Source: Curtobacterium flaccumfaciens
GTDB lineage: Bacteria; Actinomycetota; Actinomycetes; Actinomycetales; Microbacteriaceae
Assembly: GCF_013359815.1 (NCBI RefSeq)
Contig: NZ_JABMCF010000035.1
Location: forward strand, 310,001 to 374,000
Direction of reading: 5' to 3'
DNA: 64,000 nucleotides
Part shown: positions 28,833 through 38,703 of the stretch, one piece after another
How the letters are laid out: each line of letters opens with the position of its first letter
How positions within the stretch are numbered: position 1 is the first letter of the stretch
Program-made: the position numbers and the translations under genes
Notes under the pieces: model-generated
What the model was told of the DNA's origin: nothing
Databases searched by the model: none
What the model saw: only the letters and a program-made list of their open reading frames with translations

Positions 28833-28866
28833 GTCTGCCGTCTCGCGCGTGAGCGTGATCAGCAAC

Positions 28867-28908
28867 GGACAGGAGGCCCGTGGCGGGCCCGCCACGGGCC
28901 TCCCGTCC
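28867..28908 (+). terminator. Terminator after the protease operon (GGAGGC family)
   Basis: Two 21-base arms abut with one mismatch; the core is AGGAGGCCCGTGGCGGG. The remaining gap to 29186 holds an operator and a riboswitch, listed separately. Confidence 0.75.
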
Positions 28909-28990
28909 GCTTGCCTGCCACTTCCGGACCGGACACGATCTGACGACGCCGGGGAACGTCCGCCGAACGGCGCGTGAACGCGCGTCAGCG

Positions 28991-29004
28991 CCTGTCCGGA
29001 CAGG
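28991..29004. promoter_or_regulatory. Palindromic operator CCTGTCCGGACAGG (copy 1)
   Basis: A perfect 14-bp palindrome that abuts a putative -35 TTGGCG (29005-29010), with TGTTAG (29027-29032) as -10. Identical copies lie at 30102 and 37928. It places the EamA transporter under the same control as the phosphonate genes, likely through the GntR regulator at 37978. Confidence 0.75.
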
Positions 29005-29047
29005 TTGGCGGCGGCCGCCTCGGCGGTGTTAGCGTCCCCGTCGACAG

Positions 29048-29183
29048 CGCCTAGGGTTCCGGGACTCCCCGTCCGACTGGTCCGAGCGGCGCCACGGTCC
29101 GCCGCCGAACGCGGGCCGTCATCTGAACGGACAAAAGCCTGGAGGACCTCGCCCGTCGCGCCGCGCGCCGGGCAGAAGGTCCT
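29048..29183 (+). ncRNA. ykkC-class riboswitch with RBS-sequestering hairpin
   Basis: Three conserved blocks of ykkC RNA occur in order: CTAGGGTTCCG at 29051-29061, ACTGGTCCGAG at 29076-29086, and GGACAAAAGCCTGGAGGA at 29129-29146. A GCGGCG/CGCCGC helix (29086-29105) fits P3. AGGACC (29143-29148) can pair with GGTCCT (29178-29183), and GCCCG with CGGGC, burying the AGAAGG SD before GTG at 29187. Ligand binding would hold the AGGACC arm and free the SD, an ON switch. Subtype 1 binds guanidine, subtypes 2 bind ppGpp, PRPP or nucleotides; which applies here is not settled by eye. Confidence 0.88.
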
Positions 29184-29186
29184 GCC

Positions 29187-30059
29187 GTGACACCGCTCGC
29201 CGTCCTCCTCGTCCTGTCCGCCGCCGTCGCCCACGCGGGGTGGAACGTCATCGCCCACGGGGTGAGCCGGATCGGGATGCCGTTCCTGTGGCTCGGCGCG
29301 GTGTCGAGCGTGGTGGTCTGGGTCGGTGTGGTCCCGTTCACCGGGAGCCTCGGCGACGCGGACCCCGGCGGGTTCGTGCTCGGCGTTGCCGCGTCCGGGG
29401 TGCTGCACGTCCTGTACATGCTGGTGCTGCAGCGGGGGTACCGGGTCGGGCGGCTGTCGACGGTGTACGCCACGGCGCGGGGGACCGGGCCGACGATCAG
29501 CGTCGTCCTGGCGATCGTGCTCCTGGGGGAGCGCCCGCACTGGATCGCCCTGGTCGGCGGGCTGCTGGTGTTGATCGGCGTGGTCGCCGTCGGGCTCGCC
29601 GACCGTGGGACGACGTCGACGGAGCTCCCGAGGCGGCGGATCGACCCAGGGCTCGTCGCGGGTCTGCTCACCGGGGTGGCCATCGCCGCGTACACGATCT
29701 GGGACGCGTACGTCGTCCGCGACCTGGGTGTCGCGCCGGTCGCGTTCATGGTCGGGTGCACGGCGGTCGAGGTCGTGTTCTTCGGACTGGCCCTCGGGTC
29801 GCGGCGGCGCGAGGTCCTGCCCGTGCTGCGGGAGCACTGGCCGCGGGTGCTCGCGTTCGGGGTGCTGTCGCCGCTGTCGTACATCCTCGTGCTGGTCGCG
29901 ATCGGCATCGCCCCCGTGGCGCTCGTCGCACCGATGCGCGAGGTGAGTGTCGTGCTCGTCAGCCTGTTCGGGGTGCTGGTGCTCCGCGAAGGCCGTGCGC
30001 TCGCCCGGGTCGGTGCCGCGGTGGTGGTGCTCGGCGGCATCGCGCTGCTCGCGCTCTGA
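29187..30059 (+). CDS. EamA/DMT family transporter
   Basis: A 290-residue protein with ten predicted helices and two EamA repeats, starting VTPLAVLLVLSAAVAHAGWNV from GTG. DMT exporters move small metabolites across the cytoplasmic membrane. A ykkC-class riboswitch and a palindromic operator control it. If the riboswitch is the guanidine type, export of guanidinium or a similar cation is plausible; shared operator with phosphonate genes instead hints at a phosphonate-derived amine or metabolite. GTG has the SD AGAAGG inside the switch hairpin. Its substrate is not shown by sequence. Confidence 0.9.
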   Translation: MTPLAVLLVLSAAVAHAGWNVIAHGVSRIGMPFLWLGAVSSVVVWVGVVPFTGSLGDADPGGFVLGVAASGVLHVLYMLVLQRGYRVGRLSTVYATARGTGPTISVVLAIVLLGERPHWIALVGGLLVLIGVVAVGLADRGTTSTELPRRRIDPGLVAGLLTGVAIAAYTIWDAYVVRDLGVAPVAFMVGCTAVEVVFFGLALGSRRREVLPVLREHWPRVLAFGVLSPLSYILVLVAIGIAPVALVAPMREVSVVLVSLFGVLVLREGRALARVGAAVVVLGGIALLAL

Positions 30060-30101: not shown

Positions 30102-30115
30102 CCTGTCCGGACAGG
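30102..30115. promoter_or_regulatory. Palindromic operator CCTGTCCGGACAGG (copy 2)
   Basis: Identical to copies at 28991 and 37928. It lies 142 bases before phnD. TTCACC (30127-30132) and TGTACC (30149-30154) with a 16-base spacer form a possible promoter just downstream. Confidence 0.75.
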
Positions 30116-30243: not shown

Positions 30244-31185
30244 ATGCCCATCTCCGCACGCAAGTCGCTCGTCGCGCTGGCCGGCGCCCTGGCCCTCGTC
30301 GCCACGCTCAGCTCCTGCTCCGCAGGCTCCACCGCCGCGACCGGTGACGGCAGCCCCGCAGGCGGCTCCGACGCCGTGCAGTACGCCGCGGACGAGAACA
30401 CCATCGTGTTCGGCGTGGTCCCCGACTCCGTGGACACCGAGACGAACTACCAGCCGCTGATGGACTACATCGCGAAGGAGACCGGCAAGAAGGTCGAGTA
30501 CCACGAGTCGACCGACTACGCCGCGCTCATCGAGGCGTCCGTCGCGGGCAAGATCGACGTCGCGTCGTTCTCCGGGTTCACCTACGTCACGGCGAAGAAC
30601 AACGGCGCGAAGATCACCCCGATCTCCTCCATCATCACCGCCGAGGGGCAGAAGCCCGGGTACTACTCCGAGGCCATCGTGCCGAAGGACAGTGACATCG
30701 ACTCGCTCAAGGACTTCGCTGGCAAGAAGGTCTGCTTCGTCGACCCCTCGTCGACCTCGGGCTACCTGTTCCCGAGCTACAACCTGCTCAAGGCGGGCGT
30801 CGACCCGAAGACCGACGTCACCCCGGTGTTCGCCGGCAAGCACGACGTCAGCGTCCAGAAGGTCGCGGCGGGCACCGAGTGCGACGCCGGGTTCGCCGAG
30901 GACAGCGAGGTCGAGAAGAACGACGACGTGCGCGTCGTCGCGAAGACGATGGTCCCCGGCGCCCCGATCGTCGTCTCGGACACCCTGCCGTCGGCCGAGA
31001 AGGAGACGCTGACGAAGGCGCTGTCCGACGTCACCATCGACCAGATCATCGACGCCGGTGTCGACAGCGCCGACAGCGACGGCTTCCGCAGCGTCTTCTA
31101 CGGCACCAAGCCCGTCGACGACGAGTACTACGACCTGATCCGCGACATCTGCGAGACGACGAAGTCGACCACCTGCCAGGCCTGA
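30244..31185 (+). CDS. phnD: Phosphonate/phosphite ABC transporter substrate-binding lipoprotein
   Basis: A 313-residue lipoprotein: signal peptide with lipobox ATLSSC and acylated Cys25, then a type-2 periplasmic binding fold as in PhnD/PhnD-like proteins (IVFGVVPDSVDTETNYQPLM, VDPSSTSGYLFPSY). The STSGY loop is the usual phosphonate-oxyanion binding site. It hands ligand to the PhnE/PhnC transporter encoded next. The SD GAAAGG precedes the ATG. An operator palindrome and a C9 tract lie in its leader. Confidence 0.93.
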   Translation: MPISARKSLVALAGALALVATLSSCSAGSTAATGDGSPAGGSDAVQYAADENTIVFGVVPDSVDTETNYQPLMDYIAKETGKKVEYHESTDYAALIEASVAGKIDVASFSGFTYVTAKNNGAKITPISSIITAEGQKPGYYSEAIVPKDSDIDSLKDFAGKKVCFVDPSSTSGYLFPSYNLLKAGVDPKTDVTPVFAGKHDVSVQKVAAGTECDAGFAEDSEVEKNDDVRVVAKTMVPGAPIVVSDTLPSAEKETLTKALSDVTIDQIIDAGVDSADSDGFRSVFYGTKPVDDEYYDLIRDICETTKSTTCQA

Positions 31186-31220
31186 CCCGGCGACCGCGAG
31201 ACGGCAGCCCGAGGAGCACC

Positions 31221-32057
31221 ATGACGAACCACGCACCGGTCGGTACCCCGGCCGTCGAGATCACCGGCCTGACGAAGCGCTTCGGCGACACGACGGCGTT
31301 GCGCGACGTGTCGCTGCGCGTCGGGCAGGGCGAGGTCGTCGTGCTGCTCGGGCTGTCGGGCTCCGGCAAGAGCACCCTGCTCCGGCACGTCGACGCACTC
31401 GAGCTCCCGACGTCCGGCAGCGTCCAGGTGGACGGGACCGAGGTGCACCGTCTGACCGGGCGCCGTCTGCGCGAGCTGCGGAGTCGCGTCGGGTTCGTGT
31501 TCCAGCAGTTCGAACTCGTGCCGGCGCTCACCGTGCTCGAGAACGTGCTCACCGGAGCGCTCGCGACCCTCCGCGGCCCGCGGCTCGGCCTCTGGTCGTA
31601 CCCGCGCGGCCTCCGTCGCACCGCACTCGGGCACCTCGACCGCGTCGGGCTGCTCGACCGCGCGTACCAGCGTGCCGACACCCTGTCGGGCGGGCAGCAG
31701 CAACGCGTCGCGATCGCGCGGGCCCTCATGCAGGACCCGACGGTGCTCCTGGCCGACGAACCGGTCGCCTCGCTCGACCCGGAGTCCAGCGGGCAGGTCA
31801 TGCGCCTCATCCGCGAGATCGCCGCCGACCGCGGGCTGACGGTGCTCTGCAGCCTGCACCAGGTCGACCTGGCCCTGTCGTGGGCGGACCGGATCATCGG
31901 GCTCCGGCACGGCGAGGTCGTGCTCGACACCCGGACCGACGGCCTCGGCAAGGCGGAGGTCATGGAGATCTACGGGCAGGTCGCGACGAGCACCGACGAG
32001 TTCGCCACGATCGAGGCCGAGCTGCACGCACTCGACACGGGGGAGCGGACCTCGTGA
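31221..32057 (+). CDS. phnC: Phosphonate ABC transporter ATP-binding protein
   Basis: A 278-residue ABC ATPase from ATG at 31221 (SD GAGGAG). Walker A GLSGSGKST at 44-52, Q-loop VFQQFELVP, signature LSGGQQQRVAIARAL, Walker B VLLADEPVASLDP and H-loop SLHQVDLA are intact. The PhnC type is indicated by its length and context. Energises uptake through the fused permease, which it overlaps by four bases (GTGA). Confidence 0.95.
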   Translation: MTNHAPVGTPAVEITGLTKRFGDTTALRDVSLRVGQGEVVVLLGLSGSGKSTLLRHVDALELPTSGSVQVDGTEVHRLTGRRLRELRSRVGFVFQQFELVPALTVLENVLTGALATLRGPRLGLWSYPRGLRRTALGHLDRVGLLDRAYQRADTLSGGQQQRVAIARALMQDPTVLLADEPVASLDPESSGQVMRLIREIAADRGLTVLCSLHQVDLALSWADRIIGLRHGEVVLDTRTDGLGKAEVMEIYGQVATSTDEFATIEAELHALDTGERTS

Positions 32058-33799
32058 CGACGCTCGACACCCGACCCGGGACCGTGGCGGCGCTCGCCGA
32101 GGACGTGGCCCGTCGGGCACCCCGCCGCCGGGTCTCGCCGGAGCGCACGGCGGCGGTGCTGACCCTCGTCGCCCTCGGCGTGCTGGCGTGCGTCGCGGTC
32201 GCGCGGGTCGACATCTCGATCCCGAACATCATCGCGTCGTGGTCGAACGCCGAGCACTTCTTCCAGCGTGTGGGGACCGTCCGGTTCCCGGCCGCCCCGG
32301 TGCTGCTGCAGCAGACCGCGCTCACCGTCGGGCTCGTCCTGCTCGGCACCCTGCTCGCCGCCGCGCTGAGCGTCCCTGTCGCGTACTTGGCGGCAGCGAA
32401 CACCAGTCCGGGCCGCGGGTGTGTGGCCGCAGCGCGGTTCGTCAGCGTCCTGACCCGGGCCGTGCCGGACGTCGTCCTCGCGATGGTGTTCGTCCTGGTC
32501 TTCACGATCGGTCCGCTGCCCGGGATCCTGGCGATCGGCATCCACTCCGTCGGGATGATCTCGAAGCTCTTCGCCGACGCCATCGAGCAGATCGACGAAG
32601 GGCCGCGCGACGCGATCCGGGCAGCCGGGGGGAGCCGTGCGCAGCAGTTCACCGCCGGGGTGCTCCCGCAGGTGCTGCCGTCGTGGGTCGCGACGATCCT
32701 GCACCGCAACGACATCAACCTGCGCGGGTCGGTCATCCTCGGGTACGTCGGCATCGTCGGCCTCGGCCGCGAGATGTCCTTCGCGTTCAAGTCGCTCGAC
32801 TACTCACTCGGCATCGGGTACGCGATCGTCATCTTCGGCCTGTGCGTCCTGATGGAGATCGTCTCCAGCTCGGTGCGCGCCGCCATGCTCGGCGTGGCCC
32901 CGGCCGGGCGCGGCATCGGTGCCACGGCTGCCCGTCGATGGATGCGTCGACGGGACCGGCAGCGAGTTGAGGCCGCACCGTCCACGCGGCGACCGGTCGC
33001 CGCGACGGTCGAGGGCACCCTCCGCCGCCCGTGGACCCCCGTCCGGGTCCGGAACGCGATCTGGTGCTGGGTCGCCCTGGCCGTCGTCGTCGGCAGTGTC
33101 GTGGTCTGCGACATCGCCTGGGGTGACCTGGTCACCGTGTGGGGCAAGATCCCCGCCGTCGCCGTGCAGTTCTGGCCGCCGTCCTTCGGCAGCTACGGTG
33201 CCGGCATCATGTTCAGCGCGATGTTCGACACCGTCGCGATCTCCCTCGCCGCGACCGTGCTCGCGCTGCTGCTCTCGCTCGTCATCGGGTCCCTGGCCGC
33301 CCGCAACGTCGCTCCCGGGCGCGGGGTCCGGGGCGGCGCACGGCTGCTGCTCGTCGTCGTCCGCGGGATCCCGGAGACGATCCTCGCGGTCGTGCTCATC
33401 GTCGTGACGGGGCTCGGTGCGCAGGCGGGCACCCTCGCCCTGGCCTTCGGTGGCATCGGGCTCCTCGGCAAGCTGATCGCGGACTCGCTCGAAGAGGTCG
33501 CTCCCGGACCGGAGCGCGCCGTCACGGCCACCGGCGCGGGTCGCCTGCAGCGCTACGCCTCGGCGACGGTGCCGCAGGGGTTCCGCGCGATGCTCGGGCA
33601 CACCTTCTACCTGCTCGACACGAACATCCGTGCGGCGACGATCCTCGGCATCGTCGGAGGTGGCGGCATCGGCTACTACCTGCTCAACGCGGCGCAGGGT
33701 TCGAACTACGCGTCCGTCACCGCGATCGTCCTGCTCATCCTGGTCACGGTGCTCGTCACCGAGGGCCTGGCCATGTGGCTGCGGCGGGTGTTCCGGTGA
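32054..33799 (+). CDS. phnE: Phosphonate ABC permease, two PhnE domains fused
   Basis: A 581-residue protein made of two PhnE-type permease domains in tandem, each with about six helices: roughly residues 30-300 and 335-575. Each carries its own EAA-like coupling motif, ADAIEQIDEGPRDAIRAAGG and ADSLEEVAPGPERAVTATGA. The basic linker near 296-325 joins them in the cytoplasm. Most PhnE proteins are about 260-290 residues and dimerise, or are encoded as PhnE1 and PhnE2. GTG at 32054 overlaps phnC. The next gene overlaps its stop (GTGA), showing one operon. Confidence 0.92.
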   Translation: MTTLDTRPGTVAALAEDVARRAPRRRVSPERTAAVLTLVALGVLACVAVARVDISIPNIIASWSNAEHFFQRVGTVRFPAAPVLLQQTALTVGLVLLGTLLAAALSVPVAYLAAANTSPGRGCVAAARFVSVLTRAVPDVVLAMVFVLVFTIGPLPGILAIGIHSVGMISKLFADAIEQIDEGPRDAIRAAGGSRAQQFTAGVLPQVLPSWVATILHRNDINLRGSVILGYVGIVGLGREMSFAFKSLDYSLGIGYAIVIFGLCVLMEIVSSSVRAAMLGVAPAGRGIGATAARRWMRRRDRQRVEAAPSTRRPVAATVEGTLRRPWTPVRVRNAIWCWVALAVVVGSVVVCDIAWGDLVTVWGKIPAVAVQFWPPSFGSYGAGIMFSAMFDTVAISLAATVLALLLSLVIGSLAARNVAPGRGVRGGARLLLVVVRGIPETILAVVLIVVTGLGAQAGTLALAFGGIGLLGKLIADSLEEVAPGPERAVTATGAGRLQRYASATVPQGFRAMLGHTFYLLDTNIRAATILGIVGGGGIGYYLLNAAQGSNYASVTAIVLLILVTVLVTEGLAMWLRRVFR

Positions 33800-34896
33800 G
33801 CGCGACGGAACGGTACGACGTCGTCGTGGTCGGCGCGGGCATCGTCGGGCTCGGCATGGCCTACGAGGCACTCCGGCAGGGCGCCCGCGTCGCGGTGGTC
33901 GACCGTGCGGCCGCGGTCGTCGGTGCGAGTGTCCGGAACTTCGGGCACGCCTGCGTCACCCCGCAGACCGGGGAGGCGGCCGGGTACGCGCAGGAGGCAC
34001 GCCGCCGCTGGCTCGAACTCGCGCAGCTCGCCGGGTTCACGGCGCGCGAACGCGGTGCACACGTCGTCGCCCGTCGCCCCGAGGAGCTGGCGGTGCTCGA
34101 GGAGTACCGCGACTCCGGCGCGGACCTGCGGCTGGCCGACGCGGCCGAGATCGCCGCGGCGGTTCCGGTCGACCCCGGCTCGGCCCTCGGCGGCGCGCAC
34201 CTCGCGCACGACCTGCAGGTCGACCCCCGCGAGGCAGCTCCCGCGATCGCGCGCTGGCTCGCCGGGCAGGGGGTCACCTTCCACTGGCGCACCCCCGCGC
34301 TCGAGGTCACCACCGGCGCCGTCCGCACCGGTCGCGGCGTCGTGGAGGGGACCCGGATCGTCGTCTGCACCAACCACGACCTCGACCAGCTCTTCCCGGA
34401 GCTCGCCGAGTCGATCGGCCTGGTCCGCTGCCGGCTCCACATGCTGCGTGCGACGATCCCCCTCGCCTTCCCGCTCGCCACACCGCTGCTGACCGGGTGG
34501 TCGCTGCTGCGCTACTCGGGGTTCGCCGCGATGCCCGGAGCGGGTGCCCTGCGGGACCGGCTCGCCGCCGACCTGCCCGAGGGGATCCGCTGGGACCTCA
34601 ACCAGATGTACACGTCGCCGCCGGACGGCAGCGTCATCGTCGGCGACACCCACGAGCGCGGGGTCGATGCGCCGCCGTTCCAGGACGAGGACGGCTTCCG
34701 GCTGCTCGTCACCGAGACCGAGCGGCTGTTCGGTGCGCCGGTCTCCGTCGTCGACCGGTGGCAGGGCGTCTACGCCTCGGCCCCGGGGCGGGAGTTCCTC
34801 ATCGACCAGCCGGTCCCCGGGGTCGACGTCGTGACGGTCACCACGGGCATCGGCATGACCACCGGCCTCGGCATCGCGCCGACGGTCCTCGGCTGA
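33796..34896 (+). CDS. FAD-dependent oxidoreductase, phosphonate-associated (TIGR03364 type)
   Basis: A 366-residue flavoprotein of the DAO superfamily. The dinucleotide fold is VVVGAGIVGLGMAYEAL at 10-26, followed by GASVRNFGHACVTPQTGE, typical of the TIGR03364 set found beside phosphonate genes. A C-terminal ATP-grasp-free segment VTVTTGIGMTTGLGIAPT binds FAD phosphate. Related enzymes oxidise N-substituted aminophosphonates, releasing phosphonoacetaldehyde; that substrate is an analogy, not shown here. It is coupled to phnE and converges on the PhnM-like gene. Confidence 0.85.
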   Translation: MSATERYDVVVVGAGIVGLGMAYEALRQGARVAVVDRAAAVVGASVRNFGHACVTPQTGEAAGYAQEARRRWLELAQLAGFTARERGAHVVARRPEELAVLEEYRDSGADLRLADAAEIAAAVPVDPGSALGGAHLAHDLQVDPREAAPAIARWLAGQGVTFHWRTPALEVTTGAVRTGRGVVEGTRIVVCTNHDLDQLFPELAESIGLVRCRLHMLRATIPLAFPLATPLLTGWSLLRYSGFAAMPGAGALRDRLAADLPEGIRWDLNQMYTSPPDGSVIVGDTHERGVDAPPFQDEDGFRLLVTETERLFGAPVSVVDRWQGVYASAPGREFLIDQPVPGVDVVTVTTGIGMTTGLGIAPTVLG

Positions 34897-34925: not shown

Positions 34926-36035
34926 TCAGTCGCGGAACAGCCGCTGCCGGCCGTCACGCCAGACACCGACCACACGGTCCTCGCGCACGGCGACGAAGTC
35001 CGCACGGCGACCCGGTGCGAGGAACCCCCGGTCCGGAAGTCCGACGTGTTCCGCGGGGTTCCGGGTGACCGTCGCGACGAGCTCGGCGAACGGTGCGACC
35101 CCGGCGGTGGCGGCCGCTCGCAGCCCCGGCAGCAGCGACCCGAGCTGGTAGTCCGACGCCACCACGTCGGCCCGACCGGCCGCGATCGCCGCGCGAGCGG
35201 ACAGCCCGGAGCCGTGCGACCCGCCCCGCCAGAGGTTCGGGGCACCGACGACGACCCCGAGCCCGGCGTCGATCGCCGCGGCCGCAGCGCGCTCGGTGAC
35301 CGGGAACTCCGAGATCCGGGCGCCGAGCCGCCGGGCCTCGAGGACGGCTTCGGGTGTCTCGTCGTCGTGTGCTGCGACGACCACACCGGCCCGGTCCGCG
35401 AGCTCGGCGACGGCCGCTCGTCGCCGGCCGATGCCCTCGGCGCCGGCGTGGAACGCCGCGAGGCGGGCATCGAGCACCTCGTCGTCGGCGCGGTCGAGTG
35501 CGCGGTAGGCCCGTCTCCAGGCGGCGACGGTCGAGTACTGGCCGCGGCCGGGGGTGTGGTCCATGTACGAGACCAGGGCGACGCGATCCGGATGCGCCGC
35601 CACGAGCCTCCCGGCCGCTGCCACGGCCTCGTCGTGGGTGACGTCGACGCGCAGGTGCACGCGGACGTCGACCGGCAGGTCGGACGCGGCGACCGCGTCG
35701 AGGACGGCGGCGGCGTGCTCGGCGCTGCGCGCCGGAGCCGTCGCGTGCTCCACCGAGCAGCACAGCAGCGCGGTCGTCACGCCGGCGAGCAGGGCGTCGG
35801 CCGCGAAGGACTCGAGCGCGTGCCCGAGCGGGACCGGCACACCGGGGCGCGGCTGCTCGAAGCGGGACAACGAGTCGGCGTGCAGGTCGACCAGCCCCGG
35901 CAGGACGTCGACGTCGCCGAGGTCGACCGCCGGTCCGGCCGACGCCTCGACGACCACGCCGTCGCGCACGGCGAAGGACGAGCCCGGCGTCCCGCCGTCC
36001 CCGCGGTGGACACGGGCAGCGGTGAAGGTCGTCAC
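34926..36035 (-). CDS. PhnM-like amidohydrolase
   Basis: A 369-residue metal-dependent hydrolase. DLHADSLSRFE gives the first metal motif (His-x-Asp), SYMDHTPGRGQYS and VVAAHDDETPEAV match PhnM, and GAPNLWRGGSHGSG and the late ASDYQL complete the site. PhnM removes pyrophosphate from ribose-1-methylphosphonate 5-triphosphate in the C-P lyase route, but the lyase core genes phnG-L are absent in this window, so its role here may be different. It is the last gene of a three-gene minus-strand operon, 7 bases after the dehydrogenase. Confidence 0.88.
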   Translation of the reverse strand: MTTFTAARVHRGDGGTPGSSFAVRDGVVVEASAGPAVDLGDVDVLPGLVDLHADSLSRFEQPRPGVPVPLGHALESFAADALLAGVTTALLCCSVEHATAPARSAEHAAAVLDAVAASDLPVDVRVHLRVDVTHDEAVAAAGRLVAAHPDRVALVSYMDHTPGRGQYSTVAAWRRAYRALDRADDEVLDARLAAFHAGAEGIGRRRAAVAELADRAGVVVAAHDDETPEAVLEARRLGARISEFPVTERAAAAAIDAGLGVVVGAPNLWRGGSHGSGLSARAAIAAGRADVVASDYQLGSLLPGLRAAATAGVAPFAELVATVTRNPAEHVGLPDRGFLAPGRRADFVAVREDRVVGVWRDGRQRLFRD

Positions 36036-36042
36036 GCAGCCA

Positions 36043-37110
36043 TCACACCACGGCGACCGCGGGGGCGACCCCGCGGCGCAGGAACCCGTCCGACGGCGGT
36101 GTCGTGACGGCGTGCCCGACCGCGTCGAGGCCGACCGGCCGCTCGACCAGGTCCGCGAAGGGCAGCTCGCTGCGCGCGAGGAAGGCCACGGCGGTCGCGA
36201 GGTGCCGGGGCGCGTAGTTGTGGACCCCGACGATCCGGTTCAGCCGCCGCACGATCTGCTCCGGGTCGATGGTCACCGGACGGCTGGTCGAGACCGCTCC
36301 GACGAGCACGGCGACGCCGTCGACGTCGAGGGAGTCCACCGCCGCCTCGACCGCGTCGGGGTAGCCGGACAGCTCGACCGCGACGTCGAAGGACCCGATC
36401 GCGTCACCCGGGGCAGCGGCCCGCGCCGCGCCGAAGCAGACCGCCCGGGCACGTCGGCCGGCGTTCGGGTCGGAGACGGTCACGCTGGCACCCGCATCGA
36501 CGGCCATCGCGACGGCGGTGATCCCGAGCATGCCGGCACCGGTGACCAGGACCCGTGCACCGTCGAGCGGTCGCTGCACCGCGTCGAGCGCCGCGGCCAC
36601 GGTCGCCGTGGCGCAGGCCGCCGGCGCGGCGACGGCTGCCGGCACGTGCGCGGGGACGACCGCGATCGCCGTGCCGGGGAGCAGGACGCAGTGCGTGGCG
36701 AAGCCGCCGTTCAGCGTCCAGTCCGCGGTGACGGCCTCGTGGCCGTACTTCCGCAGGGAGCGGCACTTCTGCGGGATGCCCGACGCGCACCGGTCGCAGT
36801 CACCGCACGACGCGGCGACCGACCACACGACGCGGTCACCGACCCGGACCGGCTGTCCCTGGACGGTGGTCGGCGGCACGGCGTCGACCGCGACGACGCG
36901 GCCGACCTGTTCGTGGCCGAGGACACTCGGCGTCGGACCCGGACGGTGGCCGAGCGCGGTGTGCAGGTCGCTGCCGCACACGGTGGCCAGCTCGACCTCG
37001 ACGAGCACACCGCCGTCCGGCAGCGTCGTCGACGGCAGCGTCTCGACGGTGACCGGGGCGCCGACGCCGTGCCACAGGGCGTAGCGGGCGTCGGCGCGCA
37101 CCGGCGTCAC
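36043..37110 (-). CDS. Zinc-dependent alcohol dehydrogenase, phosphonate-associated (TIGR03366 type)
   Basis: A 355-residue MDR dehydrogenase. Catalytic zinc ligands are in TVCGSDLHTA and LGHEQVG; structural zinc Cys residues are in CGDCDRCASG and PQKC. The NAD-binding loop VLVTGAGMLGITAVA follows. Its head YALWHGVGAPVTVE resembles the family seen with phosphonate catabolism. It may oxidise a hydroxyphosphonate or the aldehyde made by the flavoenzyme. It overlaps the phosphonatase-like gene by four bases, so the two are coupled. Confidence 0.88.
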   Translation of the reverse strand: MTPVRADARYALWHGVGAPVTVETLPSTTLPDGGVLVEVELATVCGSDLHTALGHRPGPTPSVLGHEQVGRVVAVDAVPPTTVQGQPVRVGDRVVWSVAASCGDCDRCASGIPQKCRSLRKYGHEAVTADWTLNGGFATHCVLLPGTAIAVVPAHVPAAVAAPAACATATVAAALDAVQRPLDGARVLVTGAGMLGITAVAMAVDAGASVTVSDPNAGRRARAVCFGAARAAAPGDAIGSFDVAVELSGYPDAVEAAVDSLDVDGVAVLVGAVSTSRPVTIDPEQIVRRLNRIVGVHNYAPRHLATAVAFLARSELPFADLVERPVGLDAVGHAVTTPPSDGFLRRGVAPAVAVV

Positions 37111-37802
37111 GCCAGGACCCGGGCGGCGTCCTCGACCTCGGCGAGCACCGACGGCAACTCGGCGACCGAGTCGAGGACGTGGGTGTGCTGGACGGTCGCG
37201 AAGTCGGCGTCCTGGTGCGTCCCGGTCCGCACGCCCGCCACGACGGAGGCACCGGCGCGGTGTCCCGTGAGCAGGTCGGCGACGGTGTCCCCGACGACCG
37301 CCACGTCACGGACGTCGTCGGTGCCGGTCCGGAGCACGGCGGTGAGCACCATGTCCGGGAACGGGCGCCCGCGGCCGGCGTCGGCGGGGGAGAGCGCGAG
37401 GTCGATCAGCGGCCGCCAGCCGAGCAGGTCGAGCACCGCGTCGCGCGTCGCGGGCGAGAACCCGGTGGTCAGCGCGATCCGTCGCCCCGCTGCGCGGAGT
37501 GCGACGAGTGTCTCGACGGCGCCGTCCACCGGACGCACGCCGCGGTCGAGGGTCCGGCCGTACGCACGCTCGAACGCGGTGTTGGCCGCCTCGGCGCGGA
37601 CGCCGTCCCCGTCGAAGAGCGCCGTGAACACGGCGATCTTCGACTGGCCCATGGTGTCGACCGCGTACTGCACCGCGCGGTCGTGCTCCGAGCTGCCGTG
37701 CTCGAGGCCGACGTCGGTGAGTGCGGTGCGGAAGGCGTCGAGGACGACGCCACCGTCGTCGACGGTGGTTCCTGCCATGTCGAGGCAGACGAGCGAGATC
37801 AT
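37107..37802 (-). CDS. Phosphonatase-like HAD hydrolase (TIGR03351 type)
   Basis: A 231-residue HAD hydrolase starting MISLVCLDMAGTTVDDGGVV. The nucleophile D8 with DMAGTTVD and the cap residue K55 in MGQSKIAVF match phosphonoacetaldehyde hydrolase, whose Lys forms a Schiff base in MGLLKIDHVR. TTGFSP and VGDTVADLLTGHRAG form the other motifs. If K55 is the Schiff base, the enzyme could split phosphonoacetaldehyde or a near analogue. It is the first gene of the minus-strand operon. Confidence 0.85.
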   Translation of the reverse strand: MISLVCLDMAGTTVDDGGVVLDAFRTALTDVGLEHGSSEHDRAVQYAVDTMGQSKIAVFTALFDGDGVRAEAANTAFERAYGRTLDRGVRPVDGAVETLVALRAAGRRIALTTGFSPATRDAVLDLLGWRPLIDLALSPADAGRGRPFPDMVLTAVLRTGTDDVRDVAVVGDTVADLLTGHRAGASVVAGVRTGTHQDADFATVQHTHVLDSVAELPSVLAEVEDAARVLA

Positions 37803-37927: not shown

Positions 37928-37941
37928 CCTGTCCGGACAGG
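37928..37941. promoter_or_regulatory. Palindromic operator CCTGTCCGGACAGG (copy 3)
   Basis: Identical to copies at 28991 and 30102. It lies 37 bases before the GntR start and 126 bases before the divergent phosphonatase-like gene, so it can serve autoregulation and both directions. Confidence 0.8.
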
Positions 37942-37977: not shown

Positions 37978-38703
37978 GTGCCGGAGACCCGATACCTCGA
38001 CATCGCCGCCGCCCTGGAGGGCGAGTTGGCCGATCTGCCGATCGGCTCGCGGGTGGCCAGCGAGGCGGAGCTGGCGGCGCGGTTCGGCGTCGGGCGGTCC
38101 GCCGCCCGGGCGGCGCTGCAGCACCTGCAGCGGCGCAACCGCATCCGCCGGGTGAAGGGCGTCGGCAGTTTCGTCGCACGCCGCATCGACTACCTGATCG
38201 GTTCGCGTGCGGCACCGTCGTGGAGCCACACCGTCCGCGCGGCCGGAGGCAAGCCGTCCAGCGTGACGCTGTCGTGCGCACTCGTCCCCGTCCCGCCGCG
38301 CATCGCGGAGTCCCTCGACCTGGAGCCGGGAGCGCCCGTGCACCGCCTGACCCGGCGCTCACTGGTCGACGGCCTGCCAGCGGCGTGGGGCGTGGAGTGG
38401 GTCCCGCCGGCGATCGTGCCCGAGCTCGCCGAGGCGCTGCAGGTCAGTGACTCGCTGTACGAGGTGCTCCGGCAGGTGGGACGTTCCACGCCGCACCGCC
38501 GCTGGGTCCGTGCGACCGCCGACGTGGTGTCCGAGGACGTCGCCCGGCACCTGGACCTCGACGAGGTCACGCTCGGCTGGTTCATCGAGAGCCTGACGTC
38601 GGACCGCGACGACGAGCGACCGCTCTGCCTGAGCGAGCGGTGGATCCGGGCGGACGCCATCCGGGTGCTGTTCGAGGCCGGTCGGGACGCACCGCTGACC
38701 TGA
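37978..38703 (+). CDS. GntR family regulator of the phosphonate genes (UTRA type)
   Basis: A 241-residue protein from GTG at 37978. The winged helix ASEAELAARFGVGRSAARAAL is followed by a UTRA-type ligand domain (LEPGAPVHRLTRRSLVDGLPA ... RPLCLSERWIRAD), as in phosphonate-associated GntR proteins. It is the best candidate to bind the three CCTGTCCGGACAGG palindromes. The leader is very short, so it may be close to leaderless. Effector unknown. Divergent from the phosphonatase operon. Confidence 0.88.
   Translation: MPETRYLDIAAALEGELADLPIGSRVASEAELAARFGVGRSAARAALQHLQRRNRIRRVKGVGSFVARRIDYLIGSRAAPSWSHTVRAAGGKPSSVTLSCALVPVPPRIAESLDLEPGAPVHRLTRRSLVDGLPAAWGVEWVPPAIVPELAEALQVSDSLYEVLRQVGRSTPHRRWVRATADVVSEDVARHLDLDEVTLGWFIESLTSDRDDERPLCLSERWIRADAIRVLFEAGRDAPLT

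Follow-up and report, generated by a model that had tools for sequence, protein, structure and literature searches.

Riboswitches of the ykkC class are sorted by one base, which is an A (A46) in guanidine-I and a pyrimidine in subtypes 2a and 2b (PMC6031431). Subtype 2d is described as the one most similar to guanidine-I (PMC5912903) and as an orphan preceding EamA (phn_DUF6) genes (review PMC7266159, research paper PMC5912903). TauE/SafE, below called TauE, is named as a further 2d target in the review (PMC7266159), and the 2d ligand was stated to be undetermined in 2018 and in 2020 (PMC5912903, PMC7266159). A paper naming a 2d ligand was not found in the open-licence part of PubMed Central, which omits most subscription papers. 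PbfC and PbfD enzymes convert N-methyl-AEP, and in some cases also AEP, to phosphonoacetaldehyde, and TIGR03364 has been linked to PbfD1 (PMC10590968); the words EamA and permease are absent from the main text of that study.

Here we analysed a window of 64,000 nucleotides from Curtobacterium flaccumfaciens, in which the leader of an EamA gene is accompanied by a phosphonate gene cluster. The explanation that we consider very likely as a whole is that the EamA mRNA opens with a ykkC subtype 2d riboswitch, which exerts ON-type control over the ribosome binding site (RBS), that a PhnF-like repressor is a likely second lock, and that EamA acts as an exporter. The ykkC 2d class itself is already known; new are the co-occurrence with PbfD and a palindrome common to the leader, phnD and the PhnF-like gene. 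Together with a covarying translational platform, these are the features added here to what is described for 2d. The cluster surroundings make the question of the 2d ligand testable.

Aptamer and subtype

Three ykkC blocks had been proposed upstream of the EamA gene by an initial annotation made from the letters alone, and CTAGGGTTCCG (29051-29061), ACTGGTCCGAG (29076-29086) and GGACAAAAGCCTGGAGGA (29129-29146) were indeed present in that order and at those places. The Rfam covariance search it had suggested, run with the Guanidine-I model RF00442, gave a plus-strand match over the full length of the model (29040-29146, model positions 1-107 of 107) with an E-value of 2.9e-7 in a 5-kb search and a score of 51.1 bits, which falls below the gathering score of 63 bits. 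Searched against the whole 3.83-Mb genome, the same match (E 5.2e-8) was the sole one at E ≤ 0.001. RF00442 matches were obtained in 6 of 66 genomes of the genus and in 40 of 398 genomes of the family sample; all were under the cut-off, which fits a diverged subtype better than guanidine-I. Our own model R1, built from close relatives and with the window in its training set, scored 114 bits at 29039-29148. Matches to microRNA and Acido-1 families in the Rfam search were below the cut-offs and taken as chance. The source of the microRNA matches was a near-perfect long hairpin (28861-28911) after a PrsW-family gene, probably a terminator.

By energy folding the aptamer alone did not stand out from its shuffles in stability (z 0.73), and the minimum free energy fold of the whole leader kept part of P1 and lacked P2-P3 as modelled. 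The support for the aptamer comes from the covariance model and from conservation, not from folding energy. In 41 leaders whose detection did not depend on a sequence pattern, the aptamer core was near-invariant, with variation in loops and helices. Conservation at the 5' and 3' ends of the leader may be explained in part by the start site and the expression platform.

At the sorting position the RNA carries a C (29087, plus strand), as do all 41 family and genus loci of the RF00442 search, in which this base was not required. Guanidine-I membership was rejected on account of this C. The RNA was filed under 2d because of the published gene association, EamA/phn_DUF6 or TauE downstream and here EamA, and because of the non-A sorting base, the published criterion for excluding guanidine-I. 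It is a real and typical member of this orphan class and not a new kind of system, the subtype label being putative in so far as it is drawn from gene association and sorting base and not from the published 2d consensus. With 2d as published it shares the fold, the altered sorting base, the targets EamA here and TauE in relatives, and the phosphonate association of the transporter.

It is very improbable that the leader is a standard subtype 1 (guanidine-I) riboswitch whose target just happens to be a guanidine exporter of the EamA type. Such a reading could draw on the E-value of 2.9e-7 with the Guanidine-I model, on the described nearness of 2d to guanidine-I (PMC5912903) and on the same fold with many common bases, the overall architecture, CTAGGGTTCCG, CTGGTCCGAG and AAAGCC being alike; the differences, however, include a sorting base that is C instead of A in all 41 relatives, two exchanged sequence blocks and different genes downstream. 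The block CACGG of guanidine-I is replaced in the window type by ATCTGA (29121-29126, plus strand; columns 168-173 of alignment A2) and GGGAG by GGAGG (29141-29145), with AG instead of GA at 29143-29144. Near-fixed differences at ten positions separated 30 close relatives, 14 of them from a pattern fixing some bases, from 11 guanidine-I-like leaders of the same class in an alignment fitted to R1; these 11 were picked by eye for GAGA and CACGG, so that the A at their sorting base is there by selection. The genes after the guanidine-I-like leaders L226, L227 and L218 were, judged by eye, one ureohydrolase-like and two permease-like genes. The ykkC fold of the initial annotation stands, its reading against the usual guanidine-I targets was incomplete, as the sorting base is C and not A, and its view of EamA as a less usual target has to be dropped, since EamA (phn_DUF6) is, with TauE, a named target of 2d (PMC7266159, PMC5912903).

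A pyrimidine at the sorting base is shared with the PRPP (2b) and ppGpp (2a) riboswitches. Conserved bases directly before P1 and directly after P3 are a feature also of subtypes 2a-2c as described in PMC5912903. Unlike in PRPP and ppGpp riboswitches, purine or amino-acid genes do not lie downstream here and no P0 helix is shown; the transcription start may account for the 5' conservation in this case.

Expression platform and start of the mRNA

The first reading of the sequence had also proposed that AGGACC pairs with GGTCCT, hides the Shine-Dalgarno sequence and overlaps the 3' end of the aptamer. Both points were borne out. AGGACC (29143-29148, plus strand) overlaps the GGAGGA end of the aptamer and forms the 5' arm of an anti-RBS stem with GGTCCT (29178-29183, plus strand) as the 3' arm; AGAAGG (29174-29179, plus strand) is by its sequence the likely Shine-Dalgarno element, with GTG 7 nt downstream. 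RNAfold pairs the two arms in a hairpin at 29141-29190 with -30.9 kcal/mol (z -3.1; 3 of 200 shuffles equal). Pairing of GGANNN at the aptamer end with the six nucleotides that immediately precede the start codon was followed in 96 distinct leaders, drawn from 118, with three more excluded for which no open start was found. All six pairs were formed in 82 leaders, five in 12 and four in 2. Re-dealt partners gave a mean of 45 and a maximum of 53 full stems of 96 in 500 trials, with the best offset chosen for real and re-dealt leaders alike. The covariation of the stem exceeds chance; at its fourth pair the 94 leaders with at least five of six pairs had C-G (56), A-T (17), T-G (12), G-C (6) or T-A (3). 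The chosen start codon was 0-6 nt past the stem, with the single exception of L107 (21 nt).

The anti-RBS stem overlaps the GGAGGA end of the aptamer and the two are mutually exclusive, so that the ribosome site is expected to become accessible once the ligand binds. Ligand being absent, GGACCU would fold onto AGGUCC and bury the Shine-Dalgarno sequence together with the start codon; once ligand is bound, the aptamer would retain its GGAGGA end and translation of EamA would begin. Of the ON switch in the initial annotation, the overlapping, RBS-hiding stem is established and a translational ON switch is the natural reading, the direction of which we infer from the overlap. As the RBS hairpin is very stable, switching would have to be co-transcriptional or to need factors outside the model. 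The same stability, next to the ordinary stability of the aptamer alone, might be expected of an RNA thermometer or a structural RBS hairpin that takes no ligand, but the near-invariant core amid variable loops and helices in the 41 leaders is as expected of a ligand pocket, and we regard a ligand-free leader as extremely improbable.

Upstream of the aptamer, TAGCGT (29030-29035, plus strand) is the -10 element, a TANNNT motif at a fixed place in related leaders. All 114 leaders had the motif, between 22 and 33 nt upstream of AGGGTTCCG (for 113 of them the distance was 22 or 23 nt), compared with 12 of 1332 control windows; 115 leaders were taken from both sets, which derive partly from the same genomes, and one was skipped for too little sequence. 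Transcription probably starts near 29042, the 5' end of the aptamer, as the promoter motif predicts. With the -10 position fixed, the aptamer apparently forms the start of the mRNA, and thus the conserved GAYAG before P1 may be the start site rather than part of the pocket.

Phosphonate gene cluster and candidate operator

The gene controlled by the leader codes for an EamA-family transporter (29187-30059, plus strand; PF00892, E 7e-17). It is phn_DUF6-like and related to TIGR03340, with 95 bits against a cut-off of 288 and hence outside formal membership. The initial annotation had recognized this target correctly and left out the phosphonate genes that follow. These are, on the plus strand, a PhnD-like substrate-binding protein (30244-31185; PF12974, E 3e-52; TIGR01098, 175 bits, over the cut-off; TIGR03431 PhnD, 158 bits, under the cut-off), the ATPase PhnC (31197-32057; TIGR02315, 288 bits, over the cut-off), a fused PhnE1-PhnE2 permease (32051-33799; TIGR01097, 418 bits in two stretches) and a PbfD-type FAD-dependent aminophosphonate oxidoreductase (33796-34896; TIGR03364, 397 bits, over the cut-off of 285). 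On the minus strand follow a PhnM-like amidohydrolase (34926-36035; TIGR02318, 270 bits, cut-off 391; NF011990, 268 bits, cut-off 233), a phosphonate-associated alcohol dehydrogenase (ADH; 36043-37110; TIGR03366, 389 bits, over the cut-off) and a phosphonatase-like HAD hydrolase (PhnX-like; 37107-37802; TIGR03351, 210 bits, cut-off 219). A GntR/UTRA repressor (37978-38703, plus strand) has both domains (PF00392, PF07702) and is called PhnF-like here, its TIGR02325 score of 94 bits being below the PhnF cut-off of 157. In 28 of the 41 loci phnD, phnC, phnE, PbfD and the PhnX-like gene were near the leader, in 27 of these also the ADH gene.

The cluster resembles the described PbfD-PhnX clusters (PMC10590968) in having a TIGR03364 oxidoreductase and a phosphonatase-like hydrolase; PhnW was not seen in the scan of nine cluster proteins. 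In addition it holds phnDCE, the PhnM-like gene, the TIGR03366 ADH, the PhnF-like repressor and the riboswitch-controlled EamA. Besides the PhnM-like amidohydrolase, these nine proteins included no product of a C-P lyase core gene.

A 14-bp palindrome, CCTGTCCGGACAGG, is present in exactly three copies in the 3.83-Mb genome, all within this cluster. The first (28991-29004, exact) is just upstream of the leader promoter and ends 35 bases before the aptamer, the second (30102-30115) is upstream of phnD and the third (37928-37941) upstream of the repressor gene. It is a candidate operator of the PhnF-like repressor, and one repressor shared by the three sites is the simplest reading of a binding that is predicted from the sequence. 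Transcription of the EamA mRNA would then probably be locked as well, through an operator common to phnD and the repressor's own gene. In the genus, the RF00442 search gave five EamA-type genomes, and in each of them the palindrome preceded the leader, starting 47-49 nt before the RNA in the window, L061, L068 and L004, and in L003 just upstream of the RNA, which is there on the other strand. It was missing before the leader of the TauE-type locus of the genus (L074) and, by pattern check, in L035, L037, L039 and L041 from other genera; nor did it turn up when the vicinity of the RNA in the other loci was searched for perfect palindromes.

Targets of the leaders and co-occurrence with PbfD

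Counting the window together with 40 relatives, 39 of the 41 loci had EamA directly downstream of the leader and 2 had TauE. A pattern scan of named genomes, a set that partly overlaps with these loci, returned at least 118 stretches, of which at least 106 passed a stricter filter; among the 106 matches listed were 83 EamA, 18 TauE and one MFS target (Kribbella), and the sequence ended too soon to see the target in L120, L143, L152 and L184. The stricter filter excluded L078, L086, L094, L135, L140 and L144 from the first 80 stretches, and L165, L169, L175, L177, L186 and L190 from the other 38, the last two ending within 9 bases. Pfam was used to check the EamA of the window, TauE in L035 and L074 (window's family) and in L236 (another family), EamA in L144 and L216, and the target in L142; the other identities rest on tblastn. 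In L079 and L145 no open frame extended from the TauE start; these TauE genes may be broken and were kept in the counts. In the class sample R1 matched 39 of 394 genomes. Thirteen of them scored 85 bits or more, G834 with an EamA leader reached 68.8 bits, and 25 lay at 31-55 bits. Among the last, ten genomes hold the eleven guanidine-I-like leaders or close ones, and L220 and L225 are diverged leaders.

Some leaders departed from the common type. The Kribbella RNA (L142:5493-5594) has a 2d-like core, a GGTAGGG end and an MFS transporter downstream. A probably real, diverged 2d-like ykkC RNA precedes EamA in Anaerolineales (L144:2614-2722; R1 67 bits, with L144 in the R1 training set). In other actinobacterial families, L216:1501-1624 and L225:1501-1655 are diverged 2d-like leaders (CAGCTGA, CACCTGA) with EamA-like genes.

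PbfD over the cut-off was detected in 40 of 40 RNA-carrying genomes of the family sample (15 genera), as against 112 of all 398; the hypergeometric probability of 2.5e-25 is not corrected for kinship. In 12 of the 40 the RNA was located away from the PbfD cluster (L035, L036, L038, L041, L052, L053, L054, L057, L064, L067, L070, L072). At 85 R1 bits or more in the class sample, PbfD was found in 9 of 9 EamA-type genomes, 8 of which belong to the window's family, and in 0 of 4 TauE-type genomes. Among the named genomes outside the family, 8 of 15 had PbfD: the EamA-type L089, L102, L107 and L118, the TauE-type L109 and L128, L120 with its target not seen, and L142 (MFS). Absent it was from the TauE-type L079, L097, L145, L147 and L149 and from L143 and L144. 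G834 (EamA) had PbfD and G668, with a diverged EamA leader, had none.

For the TauE-type genomes as a whole, PbfD was present in 3 of the 12 tested (G345, L109, L128) and absent in 9, though the aptamer core is alike; the count covers TauE-type genomes other than G023 and those among the other 38 stretches of the pattern scan. A factor common to the TauE-type genomes was not obtained with either of two candidates: PhnE occurred in 1 of the 9 PbfD-negative genomes, compared with 4 of 11 genomes without a 2d leader, all from one mycobacterial-type family, and a PhnX-like hydrolase was over the cut-off in 5 of 13 TauE-type genomes, G467 being the one case among the nine without PbfD. In the loci compared, no conserved gene was seen beside the TauE-type leaders from which the ligand could have been read. 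Beside the TauE-type leader of L109 (L109:1-4900), genes of a sulfonate-type ABC transporter and of a flavin-monooxygenase-like protein were noticed by eye on the other strand, a possible hint at sulfonate.

Candidate ligands

An operator-like palindrome, a riboswitch and a catabolic pathway come together in one cluster, and all 40 RNA-carrying genomes of the family sample have PbfD; the open ligand screen is thereby narrowed to a few candidate compounds. Tentatively, and as a rather unlikely reading, 2d would be the first organophosphonate riboswitch, sensing AEP, N-methyl-AEP or phosphonoacetaldehyde as a small compound of the PbfD-PhnX pathway and forming with the PhnF-like repressor a two-lock gate, by which the EamA exporter would be made only when the pathway is both on and overloaded. 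In the overall explanation given at the outset, EamA would export, import being less likely, a small compound accumulating during aminophosphonate use. What holds the phosphonate ligand at this level is that most TauE-type genomes are without PbfD. PbfD in only 3 of 12 such genomes despite a like core means that the ligand has several origins, or that the link to PbfD belongs to the EamA branch only.

Transport in the opposite direction, with EamA importing the substrate of the pathway and the riboswitch sensing that substrate (AEP or N-methyl-AEP) as inducer of uptake, is unlikely. The palindrome common to EamA and phnD would suit an importer, as would L075 and L111, where PbfD, PhnX-like and ADH genes come right after EamA and phnDCE is not adjacent, and L141, where EamA and PbfD precede the contig end. 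Yet two of these three genomes encode a PhnE elsewhere, over the cut-off of 217 bits in G845 (218 bits) and just under it in G846 (214 bits), with none in G847; phnDCE is already at hand in 28 of the 41 loci, and the alternative target TauE is named for anion export.

A ligand unrelated to phosphonates, i.e., a general toxic metabolite or anion (sulfonate, a sulfite-like anion, an amine), with the PbfD link due to shared ancestry within the family, is a real possibility, if short of an even chance. It would explain why PbfD is missing in 9 of 12 tested TauE-type genomes and PhnE in 8 of those nine, and why TauE has no conserved neighbour gene in the loci compared; with PhnE in 4 of 11 mycobacterial-type genomes lacking a 2d leader, the TauE-type genomes are not enriched in PhnE. 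The count of 40 of 40, uncorrected for kinship, is open to this explanation, and genomes outside the family with EamA or a diverged EamA leader can be without PbfD (L144, L225/G668), as is L143, whose sequence ends before the target. Shared ancestry is countered, however, by the 15 genera that the count spans, by its 12 genomes with a leader unlinked to the PbfD cluster, and by the presence of PbfD in EamA-type genomes from other families (L089, L102, L107, L118, G834).

An overlooked riboswitch beside the PbfD clusters of RNA-negative genomes was not detected in 20 such loci of 72 genomes, the rest of the 72 being searched with stricter filters only. An EamA homologue (E ≤ 1e-40) was encoded in 10 of these 72 PbfD-positive, RNA-negative genomes, three of the homologues being 57-62 % identical, and the RNA was in none of the ten. 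Two of the homologues (L278 and L279, 62 % identical) have no riboswitch and are apparently leaderless, with a -10-like TANNNT, recognized by eye, right before the ATG, which suggests a loss of the switch.
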